In this document: piece by piece, positions 569 through 12,701 of the stretch
Layout: each line of letters begins with the position of its first letter
Numbering within the stretch: position 1 is the stretch's first letter
Virus record (IMG/VR): IMGVR_UViG_3300037093_000044
Location: 1 to 22,810 of that record
Reading direction: 5' to 3' (one strand)
Length of the DNA: 22,810 nucleotides
Origin: a virus
Position numbers and translations under genes: made by a program
The notes under the pieces: model-generated
The model's input: only the letters and a program-made list of their open reading frames with translations
What the model was told of the DNA's origin: nothing
Databases searched by the model: none

Positions 569-2059
569 TTAGGCCCAAACGACGGCGATATTCGCGCCGC
601 TCTGGACGTTGTTAAACCGGATCACATTATAAGTCGAGACATGCCCGGAGGCATTCGTGAAACTCTGGGCCACGAGGGTAAAATCTGAGAACGCCAATCC
701 GCCGACCGTGACGTTCGAAGGCGAGCCCCAGGCTGCTGGGTAGGCGTAGTACGGATAGACATTCGTCGCCGCGCAGTTGTAATTGATCGATTTCCCAAAG
801 CTGGTCGCAAACTCGCTGCTCCCGAGCGCGAGAATCTGCGCAGTGGTCAGCGTGGCGCTCGCGTTCACACCCCAATATCGCTGGTTGTAGAACCCGATGC
901 TGGTCGACGCGGTGGCAGTGTTCGTGCCGTCAGAGGCGCTGATCGTCCAGGTCTCATTCGATGCCCAGCTACCGGTGATCGTGTCACTGCCGTTGCTCAG
1001 CGCCACCGCGCCGACACCGTTGTTGATCGAGGCGCTCGTCATCGTCTTGTTGTAAGTCCACGTGAACGTGATGCTGGTGATCGTCGTGCCGACCTCAACC
1101 GTGTTGACGTTGTTCGAAAGGCTGACGGACGGCGCAACATAAAGCAGATCATCGAGCGCCAATTGGACAGTCGTGAGAAGCGGATAGCCTGAGTTCGTGT
1201 AGCTGACATCGGCTGCGGTGGACGCCCCCCCACCAGTCCCCGCGGCTCCGGTCGGACCCGTCGGGCCTGCGCCTGTAGGACCCGTCGGACCTACCGTGGT
1301 TGAGTCGGCTCCTGTCGGACCGGTCGGTCCCGTAGGACCTCCTGCACCATCACCGCCATTCGTTCCTGCTGCGCCTGTAGGACCAGTCGGTCCCGTAGGA
1401 CCTCCTGCACCATCACCGCCATTCGTTCCTGCTGCGCCTGTAGGACCAGTCGGTCCCAATCCGCCCGCTGAGCCGCCGACCCCTGTTGGCCCTGTTGGTC
1501 CGCCACCGCCAGTCGGGCCCACGCCTCCCGCTCCGCCAGTCGGGCCAGCCGTACCTGGAGCCCCCGCAGCTCCGGCGACCCCTGTGGGGCCCGTAGGACC
1601 TCCTGCACCAGCAGCGCCGGCTGAGCCTGCAGCTCCCGCCGCACCAGTCGGACCAGTTGGTCCCATTCCGCCTGTTTGACCGACATCTCCTTGCACCCCC
1701 GTTGGGCCCCATGTACCGGTCGGGCCGGTCGGGCCTGCGTTCCCCGGCAATCCGGTCGGGCCGGTTAGACCTGGCGAGCCAGTAGGCCCGGTGGGTCCAT
1801 TGGAACCGGTCGGGCCGGTCAAACCATCTGACCCAGCCAGCCCGGCAGTCCCGGAAGGTCCGGTTGGCCCAGTCGGCCCCGTAACCCCCGGCGCACCATT
1901 CATCCCTGACGCACCTGCCGATCCTGTGGGGCCTGGAGCCCCAGCGCCAGTAGGCCCCGTCGGACCTGAACCATTGCCCATCGGACCGCGCGCGCCAGTC
2001 GGCCCCGTCGGGCCGGTCGCCATCCAAATCCCGTGAGCCTCAAACTCGCGCATCATCAT
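569..2059 (-). CDS. Collagen-like tail fibre/appendage protein with C-terminal beta domain
   Basis: This 496-aa protein has a short N-terminal leader (about residues 1-13). A long Gly-X-Y collagen-like region dominated by GPTGPTG follows (about 14-280), then a roughly 215-residue C-terminal part. The C-terminal part begins with an Ig-like/beta-sandwich stretch ([19 protein letters not shown] onward) and ends in an aromatic-rich region. Collagen-like repeats in phage proteins form trimeric stalks that carry a receptor-binding or trimerising head, so a fibre role is a good inference. Three tandem ATGs lie at 2059, 2056 and 2053. The first overlaps the stop of the giant virion gene as ATGA, suggesting coupled translation. 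A further ATG at 2023 would start directly before the first GPTG. A 63-bp perfect tandem duplication lies inside the stalk. Many antisense and frame-shifted open frames here are by-products of the repetitive composition. Confidence 0.85.
1323..1448. repeat. Two perfect tandem copies of a 63-bp unit in the collagen-like gene
   Basis: Positions 1323-1385 and 1386-1448 are identical by eye. A third copy begins at 1449 but diverges after about 9 bases. The unit encodes 21 residues, seven Gly-X-Y triplets containing [12 protein letters not shown] and GPTG steps. Because the unit length is a multiple of nine bases, gain or loss of a copy preserves both reading frame and triple-helix register. Confidence 0.9.
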
Positions 2060-5000
2060 TGTCCCGGATTAGCGAAGCCGAGCGTGTTGCGTAGGCTGAG
2101 GTCGGGCAACTTGACACCAGACGGCGTGCCCATCGCCTGTGCCAGCATACTCTGACGCAAATGACGTGACAGATTTCGGCCGAAGCTCGCCGCCGGAGAA
2201 CCCAGCCCAGGGTGGTCCATCTGATACTTCACGGCCTCTTGCATCCACGACTGGACCCCCGCGTTGTCGCCGGTCTGCGCCGCCCGCAAGAGATGCTGAT
2301 TGATGTTCTGCAGCCGGTACTGCCGCTGTGCGAGCAGGCCGGTCTTGATGCGGTTGGCGTCTTCGTATAGCGCCAGATTCGCTGGGTCAAGCCCGAACGC
2401 CATCTTGGCGATGTCCGCTCCAGATGGCTGCACGTTGTACCGATCGCCTGACGCGTTGATGTAGCCGTGCTCGCGCGCATATTCCGCCTCAGCGATGCCC
2501 TTAAAGCCCTCCGGCAGCATCTTGATCGCGGCGCGCATGTAGTCGCCGTTCATCAGATCACGCGCCCCGAGATACATATTGCTGATCTCGCCAGCACCTG
2601 AACCGGCCATGGACTTGTAGAAGTCCTTCGACGAATCCTCGAACTTGCGCTTGTCAGTCAGGATGCTGGTGCCCGGCAGCAAGTTGGCGTCACCAAGACG
2701 CGACATGTCCACGCCGAGCGCGCGGGGCAGCCCCTTCGACAGGACCTCACCGACATCCTTGCCGAACATGGTGCGCAGCCACGTGCGGTACAGGCCCTCA
2801 GTGTCTATGTCGTCCCTGCCTGTAATCCCGTAGGCCAGTTTGTCGGCGACGCCAGCGAACGCATTCGCCAGCGGCAGCCCGAGCGTGCCGCAGACCATCG
2901 TCGTCATCGCCGCATGCACCGCTAGGAACTTAATCGCCTCCTTCTGTGCGTCTGGCCCCCGAGCGCCGGCAGCCGAAATGACCTCCTGGTAGAGTTTGCC
3001 CACCATCTTGGTGTGCCAGCTGCTGAACGCAAGCGAGATTTTCGTGTACGGGCCGAATGGGCCATAGCCGCTAAGCAGGCGCGACGACGCTTGCGCGCTC
3101 CAATCCCACTGGGAATCACGCACAATCTTCTCGACGAAATCACCCCGCGACATTCCCTTCACAGGATGTGCGTCGTAGGCGTCCGCCGCGGCGAAGGCCA
3201 TGGTCACACGACCAGTCATCTCCGCACCGAAGCCAAGGGCGTTCGCCCAGTGTTCCGCCTTCTGCATCGGCGATCCGGTGTCTTCTCCGTGCTCGATCAT
3301 GGTGCGCGTGAAAGTCGAGTTGAGACCCCCGCGAGCGTCCAGGTCCATGAGGGTCGCGAGTCGGTTTGCGGAGATTTTGCCTTCCAGCGCACTCTTGCGG
3401 AAACCCATCTCCGCGCCGTCAGGACTGCGCACGACCGCCGCCATCGTCTTGACGGTGTCCGGCGTCGCACCTGCAATATGCAATGAAGACTTCATGAACC
3501 CATGCGTCTTGGCCAGCTCTGGAAGACCTACCAGCGGGACCTGCGACATGGCGGTGAACGTGTAGACCGGACTGAAGCCAATCATGATCGTGTGCATTAC
3601 AGCTCGCACACCGTCGATCAGTTTGTTGCTCAGCGGGTGCAAGGCATACGCCTCGCGCTGCATCCACTCGTCCGCGATGTCGTGGATCGCCACGCGCTCG
3701 TTATCCGTCAGAGTCGGGTCGCTCTTCGCATCCAGCACCCTCTGGCGCATCGCTTGCATGGTCGTCGACATCATGCCCCTGGTCCCGAGCCCGACCGACG
3801 TGCGAACGCTGGAGCGCAGGGTCAGCGCCTGAGCCTTCAGCATGTCGCTATCGAAGCCGTGAACCATGTTGCGCGGCTGCAAGAATTTCGTAAACGAGTG
3901 ATCGGGCAAGCCGTCCAGCACCTGGTTGGTGATGTTCTCCCGCAGCACCTGGGCGTCAGCCGCGTTCATGCCCTCAGGAATCCATTCCTTGGAGTTGTCG
4001 AGCAGCCGCTGAAGGATCGCCGGGGCCTTGCCCTGACTCGTGTCAAGCGACTCCGGGCGACCGACGAACAGCTCTGGCCCGAGATGTCCAGCCTTCTGCA
4101 GCTCCCGGAACACACCGGCGAGGCTTTCCATCTGGCCCTGAGTCTCGACACGCGACATGATCGATGACTGGTCGTCGCCGCCCATCAGATGCAGGTTGCG
4201 GAAGCTGGCCTTATCCAGCGCATCCCGCATCGCCACGATCGCCCCCGGCTTGACCTTACCCGCCTCATCGACCGCAAATTTGCCAGCGACGAAATACTTG
4301 CCACTGCGCCGAAACGGCGCGTAGTCACCTGCCGCCGCCTGATCCAGCGCCATGCCGGCCTGCTTGCTCAGCGCCTTGAGATCAGGGTTCGCAGCGGCCA
4401 ACACCTTGGCGACCTTCGGATCGGTCTCCGCCTTCGCTGCATCCGCCGCAGTCATGAGGTGCAACTGCAGTTTCCCGTAGCCCTCGTTGGCGATCCGCTT
4501 CCAGTACGTGTTATTCTTGACCGCGTTGTCGTGCTCGTCCGCCATCGCCTGGTAGTCCAGGAACGGGTTCGTCGCCCAAGGCTTGAACGGCACCGGGTCA
4601 TTCGCGTGACGATCCACAACCTCTTGGATTTGCGCTGCGACGCGCATGTAGTGCGAAGTCTGGCCGTCCATCAGGTAGCCATCCAAGATCGGCTTACCGC
4701 CCTGCGTGCGGATGCTGTCGAGCTGGCTCTTCAGCCCAGGGTCGTCCTTGGGGAGGCGCTGCGAGTCGATGAGGTATTGCTGAATCTGGCCCCACATCGC
4801 CTTGCCGCCCGGAGTCTTGATGAACTCCCGCACGGCCCTGATCCCTGGGGTGAAGCCCTTATTGGCCTTGTCCAGCACGTTGTCACGCGTGTTCGACGCC
4901 TCGTAGTAGGCTTTGCCCTCAGCGAATTTCTTGGCCCAGATGTTGGCCAGCGACTGGCCGTCTGTAGCCATCGCCAGAGCACGCCGTGACGCCCCGCGGA

Positions 5001-8000
5001 GATTGGCCCACCACTCCGACCCCATGCCGGCGGCGCGCTTGGTCAAGCCGTCTGCGCTCTTGATGAAGTCGCCGACATCCTTCTCCATGTCCTGGACCGA
5101 GCGCGCGGCACGCATCTCTGGTGGCTCGATCGGAATTTGTCCGCCGCCCATCAGCTTGCGCTGCGCCAGCCAGCCCATGTCAGAGTCGGGTTGCATGTGA
5201 TCGAGGAAGTCCTTCACCGCGTCGTTCGGCATGAACTTCTGACCAGTGACGGCAGTGATGAACTCCCGCATCCGTTGCGCCACCGCAGAGAAGAACTTCT
5301 GAACCGCCGACAACGGCTTCTCAGCCGTCGTGGCCCAGCGCGACACGTTGTCGGCGAACCATTCGTCGAACCCGGTCAGATATCTGAAGTACGCAGCGTG
5401 AGCCGAATCGACCGGGCGTGCCCAGGACGGATCGTCAAGCTCCATCGCCATCTCGCGGTTGCGCGTCATGCGGACGATGTCCTGCATCGTCGCGCCAGTC
5501 GTCGCACGAAAATACGCGTCATACGCCCTCCGGACGGCCGACTGGACCGCGTCCGACGCGTTGTGCAGCGCCACCCGTTGGACAATATGACCTACCTCAT
5601 GCGAGGCGGCCTCGACCGTCCGAACGTCCGACATCCCAGGCCGCATGTAGATGTAGAAATCCTTCTGATCTGGTCCGAACTGACGCATGTGCCCCAGCTG
5701 CGCCCCATCCATGCCTGCCGTCCTGGCCGGTGCGTATGCCCCGTTGAGCTGGAGATCATCTCCAGCCTGACCATGTACGTCACCAGGGTGAACGATCAGC
5801 ACACGCGTATTACCAAGGCCCAGCATACGCATCAGGCGCGAAACATACCCAACCACCCGCGGATCAGCGGATGGGGTGCCGACGACCTTGTCGGTCGCAC
5901 CCTTGAACGGGCCATCGGGATCAGTCTTCTGCGACTTGATGTACTGATCCCGCGCCGCCACCAGCTTCGCCTTGACCGGTTCGGTCATCCACGGAGCCGT
6001 AGTGTCATCCAGGCTGAACTTAGTGCGCTGCCCGGTCGCCCGATCGACAGGGACATACAGGTCCTGGCCGAGCATGTTGTGCCCGCGGATCAGCGCATGA
6101 TCTGCGTCGTGATACGCCACGTCGCCACCAAGTTCTGCCGCATGACCCGTCGCCCAGCTCGGTGGCTGATCCTTGGGGGATTCAACCCCCTGCGCCTCGA
6201 ACGCAGTTAGCGGCGCGGCGGCGCGCACGGTGCGCCCCTCGATGTCATCGCGGGCCGCGAACGCGTTGATCGCCCGGCGCACAGCGTCCGGATCACCATG
6301 CCCCAGGCGATCAGACGCCAGCGCTTTATCGGCGTACGCCTGCCAGACCGAATTCGGCTCGGCGTCGCGGATGGCCTGTAGCCTGGCCCGCTGCTCATCA
6401 CGGAACTGCTTGACCGTATCAACCGCAGCCTGCACCACCTTCGGGTCGGAGTGCTGTAGATCACCAGGGATCGTTGGTGGCTGCCCAGCCCGACCCGCAA
6501 TAGGCTCAGATTTCGCTAGTAGTGGCTCGACATGCGTTGGCGCAGGCGGCAGCTTGGCTTCCTCGCCGGTCAGATCGCGGAGCACCCGACCACCGTCGGG
6601 GGCGGTCAGGTTTGGTTCGAGTCCTTCGGGGGCGGTGGCGACTTCTGGGTGGTCTTGGGCGTACTGCTCCCAGTGGGGGAGGCGAGCATCCCCAGGTGCA
6701 ACTTCCGCGGGAGCTTCTTTCCCTTGGGCGTCGCTGCCTCGAACTCCTTCGCCAACTCCGGGTGCTGGCTGTACATGAACGCCCGCTGTGCTTGGCTCTT
6801 GAACGGCATCTGGAGCCTCCGTTGGTTCCGGCGCGATGGGCTTCTTCAAGGCGTCCAAGCGTAGACCGGCCTCAGCGTGCAGGTCGGCCATCGCCTGAGC
6901 CGCGGCCAGCTCGGGTTTCAGCGCATCGTTCGCCCGCTTCACACGCAGGAAGTCTTCTTTCGTCTTGGCGGCAGCCTGATCGGCCTGCAGCCTATCATTC
7001 TGGTCGTTCAATTCCTTCAGCACGACCTGTGGATCAGACGGAAGCCCGTCCTTCATCACACCGTATTTCTCGGCGATTTTCTGGAGATACCCCGGAACAT
7101 CCTTGTTAGATGCGTCAGCGTCGTTCACGTAATCCTTCAACGCGCTGACCATCTCGTAGGGGTCCTTCGCGTTGAGGTTCTGGAAAAACGGATTCTTCGC
7201 CGCCCACATCTGCTGCTGTTTGGTCAGGTCGGCGAGCACCGATTCCTTGAACTGGTTCACCTCGGGCTCACGCGCCGCCACCTCTTCAGGGGTGTAGTTC
7301 GGGATGACAAAGCCAATACCGGGCGTCGCACCGGGAGGCGTCCGCCGGGCGAATTCCTGGTTGATCTCCGCGTATTCCGCTTTCTGGAGCCGTCCAAGAC
7401 CAGCAGGGATCGCGCCGCGCGCTGGCTTCTCAGCCCTGCCCCGCAGTGCCTCCTGCCTGGCGTTCAGATCGGCATCCGACATGTCGGACACGGGCGTTGG
7501 CGCTTCGAGCAGAGGCGTGCCATCTGGAGCGGGCAGGCCGTGTCCGATCGGCGGGTTGTTCAGCCACTCTTCAGGCGGACGCCAGCCAGGTGCCGCACCA
7601 GCCGGCAGCGAGCCTGGTGGGCGCGTGTACATCTTCTGCGCTTCTTCTGGCGGCAGGCCAGCTAGCGGAAGGCCCATCGTGCCAGGACGGACAGGTGCAG
7701 GCTGAGACTTGGTCGCAGCGTCTACCACCGCTGACATATCGTCAGGTGTAACGCCGCTCGGGGGTGTCCCCTGCATGTCCACCATCTTCGGATGGAGCGC
7801 CCCGAACGCACCACCCAGAACACCCCCCATCATCACCGCGGACAGACCGGCGTCGACAATCTTGCGCGCACGATCAGGAGCAGGCATCTCCGGGGCATAA
7901 GCCTCTTGGGATACGGCGGTCTGTCCGGCTGCTAGAACACCTTGATAGCCACCCACGACGGCTGCATTGGTGAACGCCCGCTTGGCGGGGCCCCCCACTG

Positions 8001-8583
8001 CGCCATCCTTCATGATTTGGCCGAGTTTGCCGGGCATGAAGCCCATAGCTGCACCCTCAGGGATGCCCAAAGCCAACGCCTTGGCCGCGCCGGCCTGCGA
8101 CAGAGCGCCGGGGTGCTGTGCCTCTTCCTGCTCGACGTTCGACCCCACAGCCCCAGGGATCATGAACGGCGCAGCCCGCGCCGCGGAAGCGAGTGTGCCG
8201 GCCCCCGACAGTGCCTTAATACCCCCAAGCGCCTCGCCACCAAAGCCAGCGAGCGCCAAAGTTGGGACCATCTGGGCGATGTTGTACGCGATGCGTTCTG
8301 GGTGGTACCAGGGCAACGCGTCGATATCGGGGCGGCTGGCCTGCTGCGCCCACGCGGCCGAGTTGTCGCCAAGCCGCTTGCCGAGGCCACCCTGAACAAC
8401 GTCAGGGACCCCAAGGACCGTACCGGCCGCTTGGATGGTGTGGCCAATCCCAGCATACAGCTCCCCCGTGCCTTTCTGAAGGCCAGAGGTCAGCCAGTTC
8501 CCCGGCTGAGACGCCGGAGCTGGATTACTTCCATCCAGGACATGAAAGATTGGAAGCTGTGAGAGCCAGTCTTGATCGGCCAT
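2056..8583 (-). CDS. Giant virion (probable ejection) protein with zinc-peptidase-like motif
   Basis: This 2175-aa protein starts at the ATG at 8583 ([10 protein letters not shown]). A TTG at 8595 would add four residues but lacks an SD site, whereas a G-run lies 4 nt before the ATG. The first 250 or so residues include Gly/Ala-rich hydrophobic segments. Residues about 250-700 are Pro/Glu/Ala-rich and look disordered. HEVGH at 995-999 fits the HExxH zinc-peptidase motif, and E1074 in DEWFAD is a plausible third ligand. The rest is largely helical, with [11 protein letters not shown] at about 1839 and a hydrophobic stretch near 1875-1900. Its size, position after the connector genes and mixed architecture match large proteins carried in phage heads and injected with DNA. 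No RNA-polymerase motif was recognised, so it is not evidently an N4-type virion RNA polymerase. Residues about 592-660 are also read in another frame by a nested gene. Confidence 0.8.
6606..6809 (-). CDS. Small conserved phage protein (MPFKSxAQR family) nested in the giant gene
   Basis: This 67-aa gene lies wholly inside the giant virion gene, in the +1 frame. It starts [19 protein letters not shown] and continues to [11 protein letters not shown]. The pattern MPFKSxAQRxFMYxxHPE..TPKGKKLP is one I recognise from small stand-alone phage proteins of unknown function. The ATG at 6809 has a full GGAGG SD site at 6816-6820 with 6-nt spacing. Third codon positions in its first 40 codons are mostly G or C. 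The host frame over the same stretch has many A/T third positions and encodes a Pro/Gly/Ala/Glu-rich low-complexity run, so this frame looks like the better-conserved one there. The tail ([19 protein letters not shown]) is low complexity, where the host frame looks more constrained. Function unknown; the basic, Lys-rich composition is compatible with nucleic-acid binding but does not show it. Confidence 0.75.
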   Translation of the reverse strand: MPFKSQAQRAFMYSQHPELAKEFEAATPKGKKLPRKLHLGMLASPTGSSTPKTTQKSPPPPKDSNQT

Positions 8584-8598
8584 GATGCCCCCCAACTA

Positions 8599-9444
8599 TC
8601 AGGTGCCATCACCCGGATCAACTGCTCCAGCCGGCAGAGTCGGCGTGGGCATCGTCGGTGCCACGCCGTTCTGTGCGCCCCACACCTCGTTGGCCGTCGG
8701 GTTGAAAACGCGCCGAAGCTGCTCAATGCGCGCTGCGTACGCTGCGTCCCTCGCGGCCAACGCCTGCGGAGTGCCTGCGCCCTGCGCCGCGTCAATTTGG
8801 CCGAGCGACTCCTGGAGAGCCCGATTGATCCCCTCCACCATCAGATGTTGGGCTTGTTCTTGTGGGTGAAGGAAGAACGGGGCGGCCATCTTCACGTCGT
8901 AATTGGTCATGGGCCGCTGCATCGTAACCGGAGCCGAAGCATCCGATTTTGGACCACCAGGTTGCCCTGGAAGAGCCTGATCGAGAGCACTCAGCTGAAA
9001 CGACTTCCCACGCACCGCCGTAGCCACTTGCGCCCGCGCAAGATCATTTCCCACGCCACCCTGGTACGTAGCTGGCCTTCCATCAGCCCCATAGACCATA
9101 GGGGGCGCACCAGTCGCCGCCGCACCCCAGCGGGCGACCATGGCCGGAGTTGCATAAGCCGGAGGACCACTCGGCGGTCCAGCCGCCACAGGCCCGGTAA
9201 TGGGCGGCGCGCCAACAGGCGCAGCCATGGTACCGGCAGGCGGCCAGCCGACGCCGCGCGCGCGACCCACAGCGGTCGGGGCGATCGGGGCCGGGGTCAG
9301 GTTGACGGGGAACGGGCCGGTGGTCCCCTTGGTCAGCGTGCCGGGTTTGACGCTAGGGGCAGCCACATCAGCCGCGCCGTCCTTGAAGTGCGGAACAGCG
9401 CCGAACTGAAGCGGCGACATCTTCGGGAGGGCCATACCGGACAT
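8599..9444 (-). CDS. Pro/Ala/Gly-rich probable virion protein, unknown
   Basis: This 281-aa protein has an AGGAG SD site 8 nt before its ATG. Residues about 1-120 are rich in Pro, Ala, Gly and Val with no obvious fold. Residues about 185-250 are more helical (QEQAQHLMVEGINRALQES, then an Ala/Arg/Gln-rich helix). The last 30 residues are again Pro-rich. The gene lies between the head-tail adaptor and the giant virion protein, with its TGA 15 nt before the ATG of the latter. A small internal or connector-associated virion protein is the best guess from context alone. No family was recognised. Confidence 0.7.
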   Translation of the reverse strand: MSGMALPKMSPLQFGAVPHFKDGAADVAAPSVKPGTLTKGTTGPFPVNLTPAPIAPTAVGRARGVGWPPAGTMAAPVGAPPITGPVAAGPPSGPPAYATPAMVARWGAAATGAPPMVYGADGRPATYQGGVGNDLARAQVATAVRGKSFQLSALDQALPGQPGGPKSDASAPVTMQRPMTNYDVKMAAPFFLHPQEQAQHLMVEGINRALQESLGQIDAAQGAGTPQALAARDAAYAARIEQLRRVFNPTANEVWGAQNGVAPTMPTPTLPAGAVDPGDGT

Positions 9445-9518
9445 CGCGAAATCTCCTACACGCGGGCAAACTCACCGTAACGCGTTCGCGCTGCGGTTGC
9501 AATGGCCTGCGCGGAGCG

Positions 9519-10274
9519 TCAATTGCCCTCGTATGACCACGCATTCCGGCCGAAACCCCAGGCCGAGACTGCGAATAGTTTGCGCATCGCGATGTTCCGG
9601 GCCTCAGTGCAGTGAGCCTCGAAGGACGCACGGAAAGCCGCAGCGAGATCGGGGTTGCCTGCGTCGACATCCACCTTACGGAGCGCCAAGTAGGCGGCCC
9701 AATCGAGCATGTCGAGATGGTGTTCCTCGGGGATTTCGGGAACGGCTTTCATGTCGTCCATGGTCAGGTGGTTCATCGGCATACGGATGACCCGCAGGAT
9801 CAATTCCTGGACATGCACAGGGTCCGGCGCGGGGTAGACGCGGAGCACCATCGTACCCATGGACCCGTCCTCGTCCGGGGCCACCTGCTCGTCAGTGTCG
9901 AACGCCACCATCTTGCCGGGCGGCAGCACGCTCAGCGCCGACGGATCGAAGAAATAGGTGTCGGGGACGTGGTAGGTGTCGAACAGCGCGTGCCCGGCGC
10001 GCGCCAGGTCGGCCTGGTCGCCGCGACAGCGGGCGGAGATGACTGCGATGATCGAGGAGTCCAGCACGTATTCGCGCTCAAACGGCTCGGTCTCCTGCGG
10101 CATCTTGTCGCGGATCATGAGCGCCTGACGCGCCATGCGGCGCTGGGCTTGATCGATATAGAGGACGAGACGGCGATCAGACCACAGCTGGCTGTGGCCA
10201 CCCCCGCCGATCTGATCGGAGTTGTCATGCAGGATGCCATCCCGCAGCTCTTCGAGCAGCTCGGCGAGGTTCAT
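9519..10274 (-). CDS. Probable head-tail adaptor (connector) protein
   Basis: This 251-aa soluble protein begins MNLAELLEELRDGILHD and then has LWSDRRLVLYIDQAQRRMARQ. Such an N-terminal helix, followed by a W-[ST]-[DN]-x-x-L-x-x-[YW]-[IL]-[DN] step, is typical of phage adaptor proteins that bind beneath the portal. A middle beta-rich part follows, then a C-terminal helical segment (DMLDWAAYLALRKVDVDAG). The order portal, scaffold, capsid, small head genes, adaptor is also what podovirus-type phages show. The SD site is AAGGGG, 6 nt before the ATG. No large tail nozzle gene is recognisable in this window; it may lie beyond the left edge. Identification rests on motif impression and gene order. 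Confidence 0.6.
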   Translation of the reverse strand: MNLAELLEELRDGILHDNSDQIGGGGHSQLWSDRRLVLYIDQAQRRMARQALMIRDKMPQETEPFEREYVLDSSIIAVISARCRGDQADLARAGHALFDTYHVPDTYFFDPSALSVLPPGKMVAFDTDEQVAPDEDGSMGTMVLRVYPAPDPVHVQELILRVIRMPMNHLTMDDMKAVPEIPEEHHLDMLDWAAYLALRKVDVDAGNPDLAAAFRASFEAHCTEARNIAMRKLFAVSAWGFGRNAWSYEGN

Positions 10275-10289
10275 AGCCAGCCCCTTGAC

Positions 10290-10631
10290 TTACGCAGCGA
10301 ACCGGAATGGAAACCGCTGCTTCTGACGATGGCCCACGACACGCCGGGTAGTTGCGTCGAGGACCGGGGTCATCTCGATGGCGTGCTCCAGAATGTCGAT
10401 CACGCCGATGGGTGCGTTCACGACTTCGCCGGGCTTGAGAATGTAGCCAACCCCGTTGAGGCCAATGTACAGCCCGTTCGGCGGGATGTTTTCGTTCTCT
10501 TCGAGGATGATCTTCTTGCGCTCCGGCATGCCCACGGCCTGGGATGGCTTGGCTTCCTCCGGAGGTTTGGCCGCCCGCGGTTTGCGCGCGGGCGGGATAG
10601 CGAGATTGGAACCGAGTTCTTCGATGTTCAT
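10290..10631 (-). CDS. Small phage structural-region protein, unknown
   Basis: This 113-aa protein has a basic, Pro/Ala/Lys-rich N-terminus (to about residue 40), then a compact domain. That domain starts KKIILEENENIPPNGLYIGL and continues with GVGYILKPGEVVNAPIGVI. Phages with related capsid modules often carry a similar short protein (hydrophobic strand, ENE-x-IPP-x-G, G-Y-x-L-x-PGE) near the capsid gene; this is recalled, not searched. The SD region is GAGAG, 7 nt before the ATG. It is 15 nt downstream of the 52-aa gene's stop and 15 nt upstream of the adaptor's start. Function unknown; a minor head or neck component is possible. Confidence 0.7.
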   Translation of the reverse strand: MNIEELGSNLAIPPARKPRAAKPPEEAKPSQAVGMPERKKIILEENENIPPNGLYIGLNGVGYILKPGEVVNAPIGVIDILEHAIEMTPVLDATTRRVVGHRQKQRFPFRFAA

Positions 10632-10646
10632 TTGTCAGCTCTCTGA

Positions 10647-10805
10647 TTAGCCGGTAGCGCCGGTCGGACCGGTCGGGCCGGTCGGGCCGGTGACTCCAGC
10701 GTTCACGCCGGCCGCCAACGCGGCAAAATTGGCGTTGATCCGCGCAGCCGTCTTGGCCCACGAATCATTGCCGGTGGTGTCGATTGTGGTCACGGTCACG
10801 GTCAT
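10647..10805 (-). CDS. 52-aa protein with INANFAAL motif and GPTGPTG tail
   Basis: The protein opens MTVTVTTIDTTGNDSWAKTA, continues ARINANFAALAAG and ends in [15 protein letters not shown]. The N-terminal part resembles the short W-x-x-x-x-x-x-[IL]-N-x-N-F-x-x-L segment found at the start or middle of many phage fibre proteins. The tail is a miniature version of the collagen-like stalk of the fibre gene at 569-2059. Its ATG at 10805 shares one base with the upstream TGA (TGATG), so it is probably translated by coupling. Third codon positions are mostly G or C. It could be a minor fibre or capsid appendage, or a fragment copied from a fibre gene; nothing in the sequence decides between these. 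Confidence 0.7.
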   Translation of the reverse strand: MTVTVTTIDTTGNDSWAKTAARINANFAALAAGVNAGVTGPTGPTGPTGATG

Positions 10806-11089
10806 CACTCGTCTCCATCGTTGTCAGACGTTGCCTTGACGGCCGCGTCGAAGGCTTTCGCGAATGAGTCCGGCGGGGTGGACTCGGCGGGGAGCGCGGT
10901 GGCGATGACCTTCTCGACGAATTTCACCACTGCCGCCTCATTGTCGAACCGGTATTCCCGGCACGGGTCCATCCACTTGCTGGACGGCACGTCCTTCCCA
11001 GATCGAGCCTCGTTCGCCGCGACGATCTTGGGATCGGTCACGGACACGGTGAAACCGTTTTGGATGCGCTCGATGCGGATGCAGGCCAT
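10805..11089 (-). CDS. Small hypothetical phage protein
   Basis: This is a 94-aa soluble, mildly acidic protein starting MACIRIERIQNGFTVSVTDP. It has two predicted beta strands first, then a helical acidic C-terminus (FDNEAAVVKFVEKVIATAL). The SD site is AGGGG with 6-nt spacing. It follows a strong hairpin that separates it from the 146-aa gene upstream, and its stop overlaps the start of the 52-aa gene. No family recognised; the location among head genes suggests a minor structural or assembly role. Confidence 0.7.
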   Translation of the reverse strand: MACIRIERIQNGFTVSVTDPKIVAANEARSGKDVPSSKWMDPCREYRFDNEAAVVKFVEKVIATALPAESTPPDSFAKAFDAAVKATSDNDGDE

Positions 11090-11112
11090 GACGGACCCCT
11101 GAAAGAGGTGGA

Positions 11113-11130
11113 GGCGGGCCGGAGCCCGCC
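11113..11130 (-). other. RNA hairpin with UCCG tetraloop after the 146-aa gene
   Basis: On the transcribed (minus) strand this is GGCGGGC-TCCG-GCCCGCC, a perfect 7-bp GC stem. The C-G-closed UCCG loop belongs to the very stable UNCG tetraloop class. Beyond one mismatch the stem can extend by about three more pairs. It begins 9 nt after the TAA of the 146-aa gene. There is no T-run after it, so an mRNA-stabilising or weakly attenuating role is more likely than full intrinsic termination. Confidence 0.65.
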
Positions 11131-11138
11131 ACCGTTCG

Positions 11139-11579
11139 TTAGCCGATGGCGACCCAGACGTAGGTGTGGGCGTTCACGTTGATGTTGAACGTGAGCTTGG
11201 CCACAGTCGGGTCCGGCGAGTAGACACTGACCGAGGCCGTGCCGTTCACGCCGTCATCGGGAGTCTGCGCGCCGGGGGCCGGGAAGGCGACCTCGGTGCG
11301 AGAGGTGATCTTGCCATTCGACACGATCGCCGAGTTGGCGTCGATCGCCGGATCGACCAGACCAGTCGTCAGGAGGGTGTCCGTCGCCGCCATACCGAGA
11401 ATCCACTCGTACTCGGACGCGCCGGTGGCGGCCGCCATGTCGATGAGCTTCGCGTAGACGGGCGTGAAGCCCAGATTGACCGTAATGGCACCCGAGCCGT
11501 CGCCGGTGAAGTGGCCCGTGGCGATGTTGCCGAAGGCGGTGTAGGTGTCGGGGCCGATGCCCGAGGCATTGAGAGTCAT
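11139..11579 (-). CDS. Probable capsid-associated (decoration-like) protein
   Basis: This 146-aa protein is beta-rich, starting MTLNASGIGPDTYTAFGNI and containing GAITVNLGFTPVYAKLIDM; it ends in NINVNAHTYVWVAIG. It has no signal peptide, membrane segment or enzyme motif. It sits directly after the major capsid gene with its own AGGAG SD site 7 nt before the ATG. Strong UCCG-loop hairpins lie on both sides, which would suit independent high expression. Small beta-rich proteins encoded just after the capsid gene are often head decoration or cement proteins, so that is the favoured inference. Confidence 0.65.
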   Translation of the reverse strand: MTLNASGIGPDTYTAFGNIATGHFTGDGSGAITVNLGFTPVYAKLIDMAAATGASEYEWILGMAATDTLLTTGLVDPAIDANSAIVSNGKITSRTEVAFPAPGAQTPDDGVNGTASVSVYSPDPTVAKLTFNINVNAHTYVWVAIG

Positions 11580-11609
11580 TTTCGTGCTCCTAGAACCGAG
11601 GGGTTGCGA

Positions 11610-11633
11610 TGACGGGGCCCGGAGGCCCCGTCA
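11610..11633 (-). other. Strong UCCG-tetraloop hairpin immediately after the capsid gene
   Basis: On the minus strand this reads TGACGGGGCC-TCCG-GGCCCCGTCA, a perfect 10-bp stem closed by a C-G pair over a UCCG (UNCG-class) loop. It starts 6 nt after the stop of the major capsid gene and ends about 20 nt before the SD of the next gene. No T-run follows, so it is not a canonical rho-independent terminator. It could protect the 3' end of capsid mRNA or partly attenuate readthrough. Confidence 0.75.
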
Positions 11634-11639
11634 GGGTGA

Positions 11640-12701
11640 TTACGCCGTGCAGCCGACTTCGAGGCGAGCCATGAAGGCGTCCTGCAGGATGATCGTGGCG
11701 GTCCACAGCTTCCAGCCGACCGTGCCGCGCTGCGCCAGGGGATCACCCGCCGCAGGCTTGGGGTTGACGACCATGGGGGTCATGGACGACTTGCCCTTGA
11801 GCGGGACGATGCCGAAAGCGTCGCGCGCGAAGATCAGGATCGGGTACACATCGACATTGCCGCCGGTGGCGCGCAGCCCGCTCGCACCCACCGCAGCGCC
11901 AAGGCCCGCAAACGGGGCGATGACAGTCGAGGTGAGGTAGCGAACCTGCTCGCAGGAGCCGATTTCGCCTTCGAACGGGGTCGTGTGCGGGCCGTAGTCG
12001 GCGACCACCTTGAAGCCGGTCATCGAGCGCAGATCGGTTTCCAGGTCCGGATGGCAAACGGCCATGTAGGACGCTTCGACCGACTTCGTATTGAAGTCCG
12101 CCGTGGAAGCGACCACCGTGGTGATCTTCTTCGCGTTCTGCCGGTTCAGGCCGGTCGTCACCTTGCGCTGGTCGGACAGCGCGATCGCGGTGATGACGTT
12201 GGCACGAGCCGCAACCGCGTTCGCGTACCAGACGTTGGTGCCGGCCTTGAGAACGTTGAACCGCAGGGTCTCCACGGTGAGCGCAGCCTGCTCGCCAAGG
12301 ATGTCGGTCATCTGTTGCAAGACCGGGTCCGTGTGGGTGTCCTCGATCACGTCGGTGATGGTCATGAAGTCGCCATACTGGGCGAGCGTCACGGTGTAGT
12401 CCTGGTTGGCCAGGGTCGAGCCCGAAGGCGTGACACCCTCGATCAGCGGCGTGATGGCCACCGGGATGTTGAACGCCGCGCCAGCGCCGTTGGTGCCACC
12501 GCCATCAGGACCCGCCGCGCCAGTAGCGCCGGTCATGAAGTAGCGACGGAACTTCGCGGTCTGCGTCGAGTTCGTCGGAAGGGGATAGGTCTGGCCGAAT
12601 TTTTCCAAATGCAAATAGGGCATGGCCCTCTTGAGCATGCGGACGACGGAATAGGCGGCGACTGCTGGGGAGATGTCGCCATAAGAGGTGATCGCGGCCA
12701 T
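11640..12701 (-). CDS. Major capsid protein, N4-gp56 family
   Basis: This 353-aa protein forms the head shell. It shows features I associate with the N4-gp56 capsid family (HK97-like fold expected): an N-terminal segment leading to TQTAKFRRYFMTGATGA, then TVTLAQYGDFMTITDVIED, THTDPVLQQMTDILGEQAA, and a central FNVLKAG. The length is typical for the family (about 300-400 aa). A Gly-rich insert after FRRYFMTG contains AGPDGGGTNGAG, which may form a flexible loop. The start at 12701 has AGGAG 7 nt upstream. It follows the scaffold gene after a 135-nt hairpin-rich leader and is followed by a strong UNCG hairpin, both unusual in this otherwise tightly packed block and consistent with high-level expression. 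The C-terminus (GWKLWTATIILQDAFMARL) is also family-like. Confidence 0.9.
   Translation of the reverse strand: MAAITSYGDISPAVAAYSVVRMLKRAMPYLHLEKFGQTYPLPTNSTQTAKFRRYFMTGATGAAGPDGGGTNGAGAAFNIPVAITPLIEGVTPSGSTLANQDYTVTLAQYGDFMTITDVIEDTHTDPVLQQMTDILGEQAALTVETLRFNVLKAGTNVWYANAVAARANVITAIALSDQRKVTTGLNRQNAKKITTVVASTADFNTKSVEASYMAVCHPDLETDLRSMTGFKVVADYGPHTTPFEGEIGSCEQVRYLTSTVIAPFAGLGAAVGASGLRATGGNVDVYPILIFARDAFGIVPLKGKSSMTPMVVNPKPAAGDPLAQRGTVGWKLWTATIILQDAFMARLEVGCTA

Follow-up and report, generated by a model that had tools for sequence, protein, structure and literature searches.

The window analysed here, i.e., the whole stretch of 22,810 nucleotides of IMG/VR record IMGVR_UViG_3300037093_000044, very probably contains an overprinted late gene which is real and translated, as judged from sequence evidence. 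Genuine overprinting was proposed in a first-pass annotation of this DNA and is borne out by homology of the small protein, recurrent nesting in a single frame, dominance of selection on the small frame, codons which are compatible with the host gene, and enrichment of start signals in the GC-richer phages. The nested gene, identified by translation and family match, occupies positions 6606–6809 on the minus strand and encodes a 67-aa protein beginning with MPFKSQAQR. It is a complete frame of 67 codons, with ATG and stop, in the +1 frame of a giant open reading frame (2056–8595, minus strand), whose ATG at 8583 yields a late protein of 2175 aa (2056–8583, minus strand). Homologues of this host protein are present in L004, L032, L087, L121 and other contigs, and its gene is flanked by adaptor/head genes on one side and by the tail fibre gene on the other.

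The nested start codon is preceded by the bases AACGGAGGCTCCAG-ATG, and the annotated Shine-Dalgarno-like GGAGG (6816–6820, minus strand; AACGGAGGCTCCAGATG) is found exactly there, 6 nt 5' of the ATG. The third-position bias had also been read correctly: GC3 is 0.90 in the first 40 codons of the small frame and only 0.40 in the host frame of the same stretch, compared with 0.75 for the whole giant gene. A chance reading frame was ruled out by homology, since the window protein matched the family profile with E 6.8e-25 (the profile includes the window protein as one row, most rows being independent relatives). An assembly error was ruled out as well, because the near-identical contig L002, from another IMG/VR record, carries the same frames, with the 67-aa frame 100% identical and the giant frame different in 3 bases; this argues against an assembly indel.

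A scan of viral contigs for relatives of the small gene gave at least 435 matches, and 212 distinct family genes were collected from several such scans and one scan of contigs from prokaryote genomes. They include free-standing copies, as had been expected from the N-terminus of the protein. In the alignment, residues M1, P2, F3, K4, S5, A7, Q8, P17, A20, T27, P28, L33 and P34 are invariant or nearly so. The conserved core, common to nested and free relatives, comprises the first 38 codons (6696–6809, minus strand), followed by a variable C-terminal tail (6606–6695, minus strand), which was modelled with low confidence. The AlphaFold2 model of the 67-aa protein had a mean pLDDT of 76.9, with values of about 90 for residues 1–30 and of 51–76 per 10-residue block thereafter; helices are predicted for residues 6–15 and 17–26. 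In PHROG, the family corresponds weakly to phrog_1375, a group of phage proteins to which the library assigns no function; it was matched by 37 of 60 family members at E <= 0.01 (best value 3.4e-6), and weakly by the window protein (E 0.018 for the whole sequence, 0.0056 for the first 40 residues). A search for a function in Pfam, PHROGs and solved structures yielded nothing beyond phrog_1375, and the best matches in a structure comparison of the model were only uncharacterised phage proteins. With the window protein as tblastn query no match was obtained in phage records, while other family members led to the cultured elemo phages and others. Among the papers searched, none was found on the MPFKS motif or on such nesting.

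Some copies form the in-frame N-terminal domain of larger proteins; in L048 (8001–9275) the motif is the N-terminus of a 425-aa protein with a match to M48-type metallopeptidases. In L109, a reading frame at 8574–9014, just upstream of and overlapping an MPFKS gene, contains MPFVSQKQRKWM and then a LAGLIDADG-like stretch, AYLAGAIDGEGCIRIF, which suggests a homing endonuclease that was either joined to a copy of the motif or inserted into one.

Nesting was found for 121 of the 212 genes, a fraction which is no estimate for the population, since the viral contigs were scanned for relatives with query sets made up mostly or entirely of nested genes, and the 80 best matches were retained. Giant genes harbour 67 of the nests, and 54 are in an unrelated protein of about 400 aa; phmmer grouped the host sequences into six clusters. 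Altogether 113 of the 212 genes lie inside a same-strand reading frame of at least 300 codons, all 113 in the same relative frame and none in the other; 8 further nests, at contig ends or with a short 5' margin, have the same frame open and bring the number to 121. Almost all records with any copy have one. In L032 (7482–7652, corresponding to L095, 4517–4687) the giant gene contains, upstream of the first copy and in the same frame, a second one which is diverged and lacks the MPF start (LYKSEAQRQWTRENNPELAKRLEAETPPWKRLP). The only other such case among the records searched is that behind L163 (105 kb), with two copies about 60 kb apart; it may represent joined sequences or several genomes in one contig.

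In the cultured elemo phages the nest lies in a protein of 3667 aa, annotated by the depositors as structural. The complete genome of ctfjg026 (MW202828) contains the small gene at 9593–9724 within a giant gene at 741–12320, in the same frame. In the annotated nested records which were read, elemo MT497075 and MW202828, the small gene is unannotated. The host of about 400 aa adjoins a portal gene (phrog_6547) and a head protein gene (phrog_13704). In L215 the order is terminase, portal, host protein of about 395 aa and virion structural (head) protein, the last of which, from order and size, would be the major capsid protein. The host gene thus lies between portal and capsid-type genes, where scaffolding proteins are encoded; three members had no match in PHROG, hence none to a known scaffold family, and "scaffold-position" is therefore used only as a label.

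The host-frame linker over the nested gene (6604–6810, minus strand) belongs to a type which is acidic and of disorder-type composition across 112 nests. The proposal that a disordered linker of the host absorbs the constraint of the overlap is supported by this composition. Per 32 codons, the net charge is -4.9 in the overlapped frame, which is of the same sign as the acidic host flanks, and +10.7 in the alternative frame. A basic small gene, read in the overlapped frame, would thus encode an acidic linker which fits the host, and in the other frame a strongly basic one; we infer that the frame is constant for this reason. That the nesting frame is simply easier to keep open was ruled out, since it is the harder one: in 95 free copies (including a few later recognised as truncated nests) the nested-type frame was open in 19 and the other shifted frame in 59. 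The nested-type frame was open in none of the 16 copies located directly 3' of homologous giant genes, and in 11 of 71 testable copies lying elsewhere, 49 of which had the other frame open.

These data could perhaps be accommodated by one mini-gene which was overprinted repeatedly into unrelated virion genes, in a frame predictable from protein chemistry, with the conserved nested DNA marking a module boundary at which N- and C-terminal parts of the giants are exchanged; this view is put forward tentatively. Two trees bear on it, both limited by shortness or recombination of the alignments and silent on the direction of change: a quick tree of host N-terminal parts gave at least 6 changes between nested and 3' states, at least 4 of them forced, and a tree from 48 columns gave 9 changes between nested and free states, at least 4 of them forced. 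By these trees, the small gene has moved between the linker and the 3' end of the giant more than once. If the gene was nested just once, long ago, in a giant and was afterwards only un-nested, relocated or lost, the constant frame would be explained without an argument from composition, and the clustering of nested copies on the trees as well as the derived position of copy-less giants (see below) would fit such a history. It appears rather unlikely, though, in view of the changes of state just given and of hosts of two unrelated kinds; moreover, the elemo phages possess a homologue of the protein of about 400 aa, yet their sole detected copy lies in the giant gene.

The first-pass annotation had raised a different possibility for the origin, namely that two virion genes which once flanked the small gene were fused through its alternative frame. 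The host N- and C-terminal parts have indeed been swapped independently around the nest, which places it at a module boundary; the pairs L010/L031 and L037/L069 have the N-terminal part in common, with little or no similarity of the C-terminal part. However, a search for the parts of the giant as separate genes found none around free small genes, and the arrangement of separate N gene, small gene and C gene was found at no locus. Homologous giants without a nest are continuous reading frames. Some of them (L074, L100, L133 and others) are followed immediately 3' by the small gene; others (L088–L096, except the nested L093 and L095) are in records with no detectable copy, and the small protein is therefore not obligatory for the giant. 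In the giant family of the window the six copy-less relatives form one derived clade (support 99/99), which is explained most simply by loss with the giant left intact. Origin by fusion is thus very improbable.

On the most probable reading, one mRNA carries both the giant virion-module protein and, inside the acidic, disordered-type linker of the latter, a complete second gene. Translation of the nested gene probably starts internally, at an ATG of its own, which in the window phage is preceded by the Shine-Dalgarno-like site. In contigs with more than 40% GC, an SD-like motif was present at 19 of 26 nested starts, compared with 197 of 1904 other out-of-frame ATGs of the same host genes (10%); in AT-rich contigs it was present at 1 of 86 nested starts. 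Bacteroidota in general make little use of SD sites, a habit which the hosts of the AT-rich contigs may share. The mostly absent SD sites in AT-rich nests, and the one relative frame everywhere, would also suit programmed +1 frameshifting from the giant into a short alternative C-terminus; this is highly improbable, since essentially every copy has the ATG, at which the free ones also begin, an in-frame stop lies a few codons upstream in many nests, SD-like sites are enriched in the GC-richer phages, and inspection of the sequences by eye revealed no common shift site upstream of the ATG.

Purifying selection on the nested frame was detected when nested relatives were compared as 54 disjoint pairs. 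The substitutions at positions 1, 2 and 3 of the small codons, which correspond to host positions 2, 3 and 1, were 153, 91 and 314, respectively. In the C-terminal flanks of the hosts of the same pairs, host positions 1, 2 and 3 had 2727, 2002 and 4447 substitutions. Host position 3 is thus the freest in the flank and the least changed in the nest, i.e., the normally free position of the host is the most constrained there. Amino acid changes amounted to 193 of 1512 in the small frame versus 409 of 1512 in the host frame. The L010–L031 pair (4, 2 and 15 substitutions at small positions 1, 2 and 3) agrees with this pattern; pairs from the window's own giant family (72, 60 and 79) have diverged too far to show the contrast clearly, and the case for the window therefore rests also on membership in the family.

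Codon choice points in the same direction. Phe3 is encoded by TTC in 119 of 120 nests and by TTT in 15 of 16 copies 3' of homologous giants, and T in third positions accounts for 4–9% in the nests versus 22–23% in the un-nested comparison. Nested copies avoid codons which would stop the host frame; copies 3' of giants do not. That the small frame is an untranslated by-product of a conserved host motif ([DN]A[VI]QEPS...), which spells MPFKS when shifted, can practically be dismissed: the host-frame peptide is recognisably similar between nests too, but free-standing copies exist without host frame or host, the host third position is the least and the small-frame third position the most changed in the nests, and the copies 3' of giants keep the protein and lose the host-frame motif, as is evident from their TTT codons and closed frames.

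The window giant had no family match in Pfam or PHROG, including known ejection or polyvalent domain families. This distinguishes it from the polyvalent and ejection-type giants (PMC5512222; podoviral internal virion proteins), which it resembles in an HExxH motif and in its late location, ahead of the tail fibre; a further likeness is a DNA methylase domain in the giant of the relative L069. The motif in the window giant is HEVGH (5587–5601, minus strand; residue 999 from the TTG of the reading frame) and is zinc-peptidase-like; the domain in the L069 giant (6485–11695) is of the N6/N4 type (E 3.7e-15) and follows the nest. The paper on polyvalent proteins (PMC5512222) makes no mention of overlap or of an alternative frame.

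Free copies of the small gene are also found in L035, where the portal gene immediately precedes the copy, and in a similar order in L049. The small basic protein, with two short helices and, in most members, a basic tail, may act late in head assembly or in DNA packaging or ejection, since its gene lies in or 3' of giants in ejection position, in a gene in scaffold position, or after the portal gene. This assignment, drawn from gene position, is offered as a possibility only.

Rz1 is nested in Rz, and the two are functional partners. The present arrangement is similar in that a larger phage gene wholly encloses a complete small one, on the same strand and in a shifted frame. It differs in that the nested gene is a member of a widespread family, which also occurs free, in two unrelated hosts and 3' of one of them; a partnership with its hosts would here be hypothetical.

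Overlapping genes are usually pictured as new frames which were born within old genes. Here, a gene family which also exists free was placed into other genes, by the current trees more than once, and always in one frame. The un-nested relatives of the same genes reveal the cost of the constraint, which amounts to a natural experiment on overlapping genes, and a large one. A conserved gene is missing from the annotation of the elemo phages and of ctfjg026, and the nests are a pointer to an uncharacterised small phage protein which is tied to the head and to giant late proteins.
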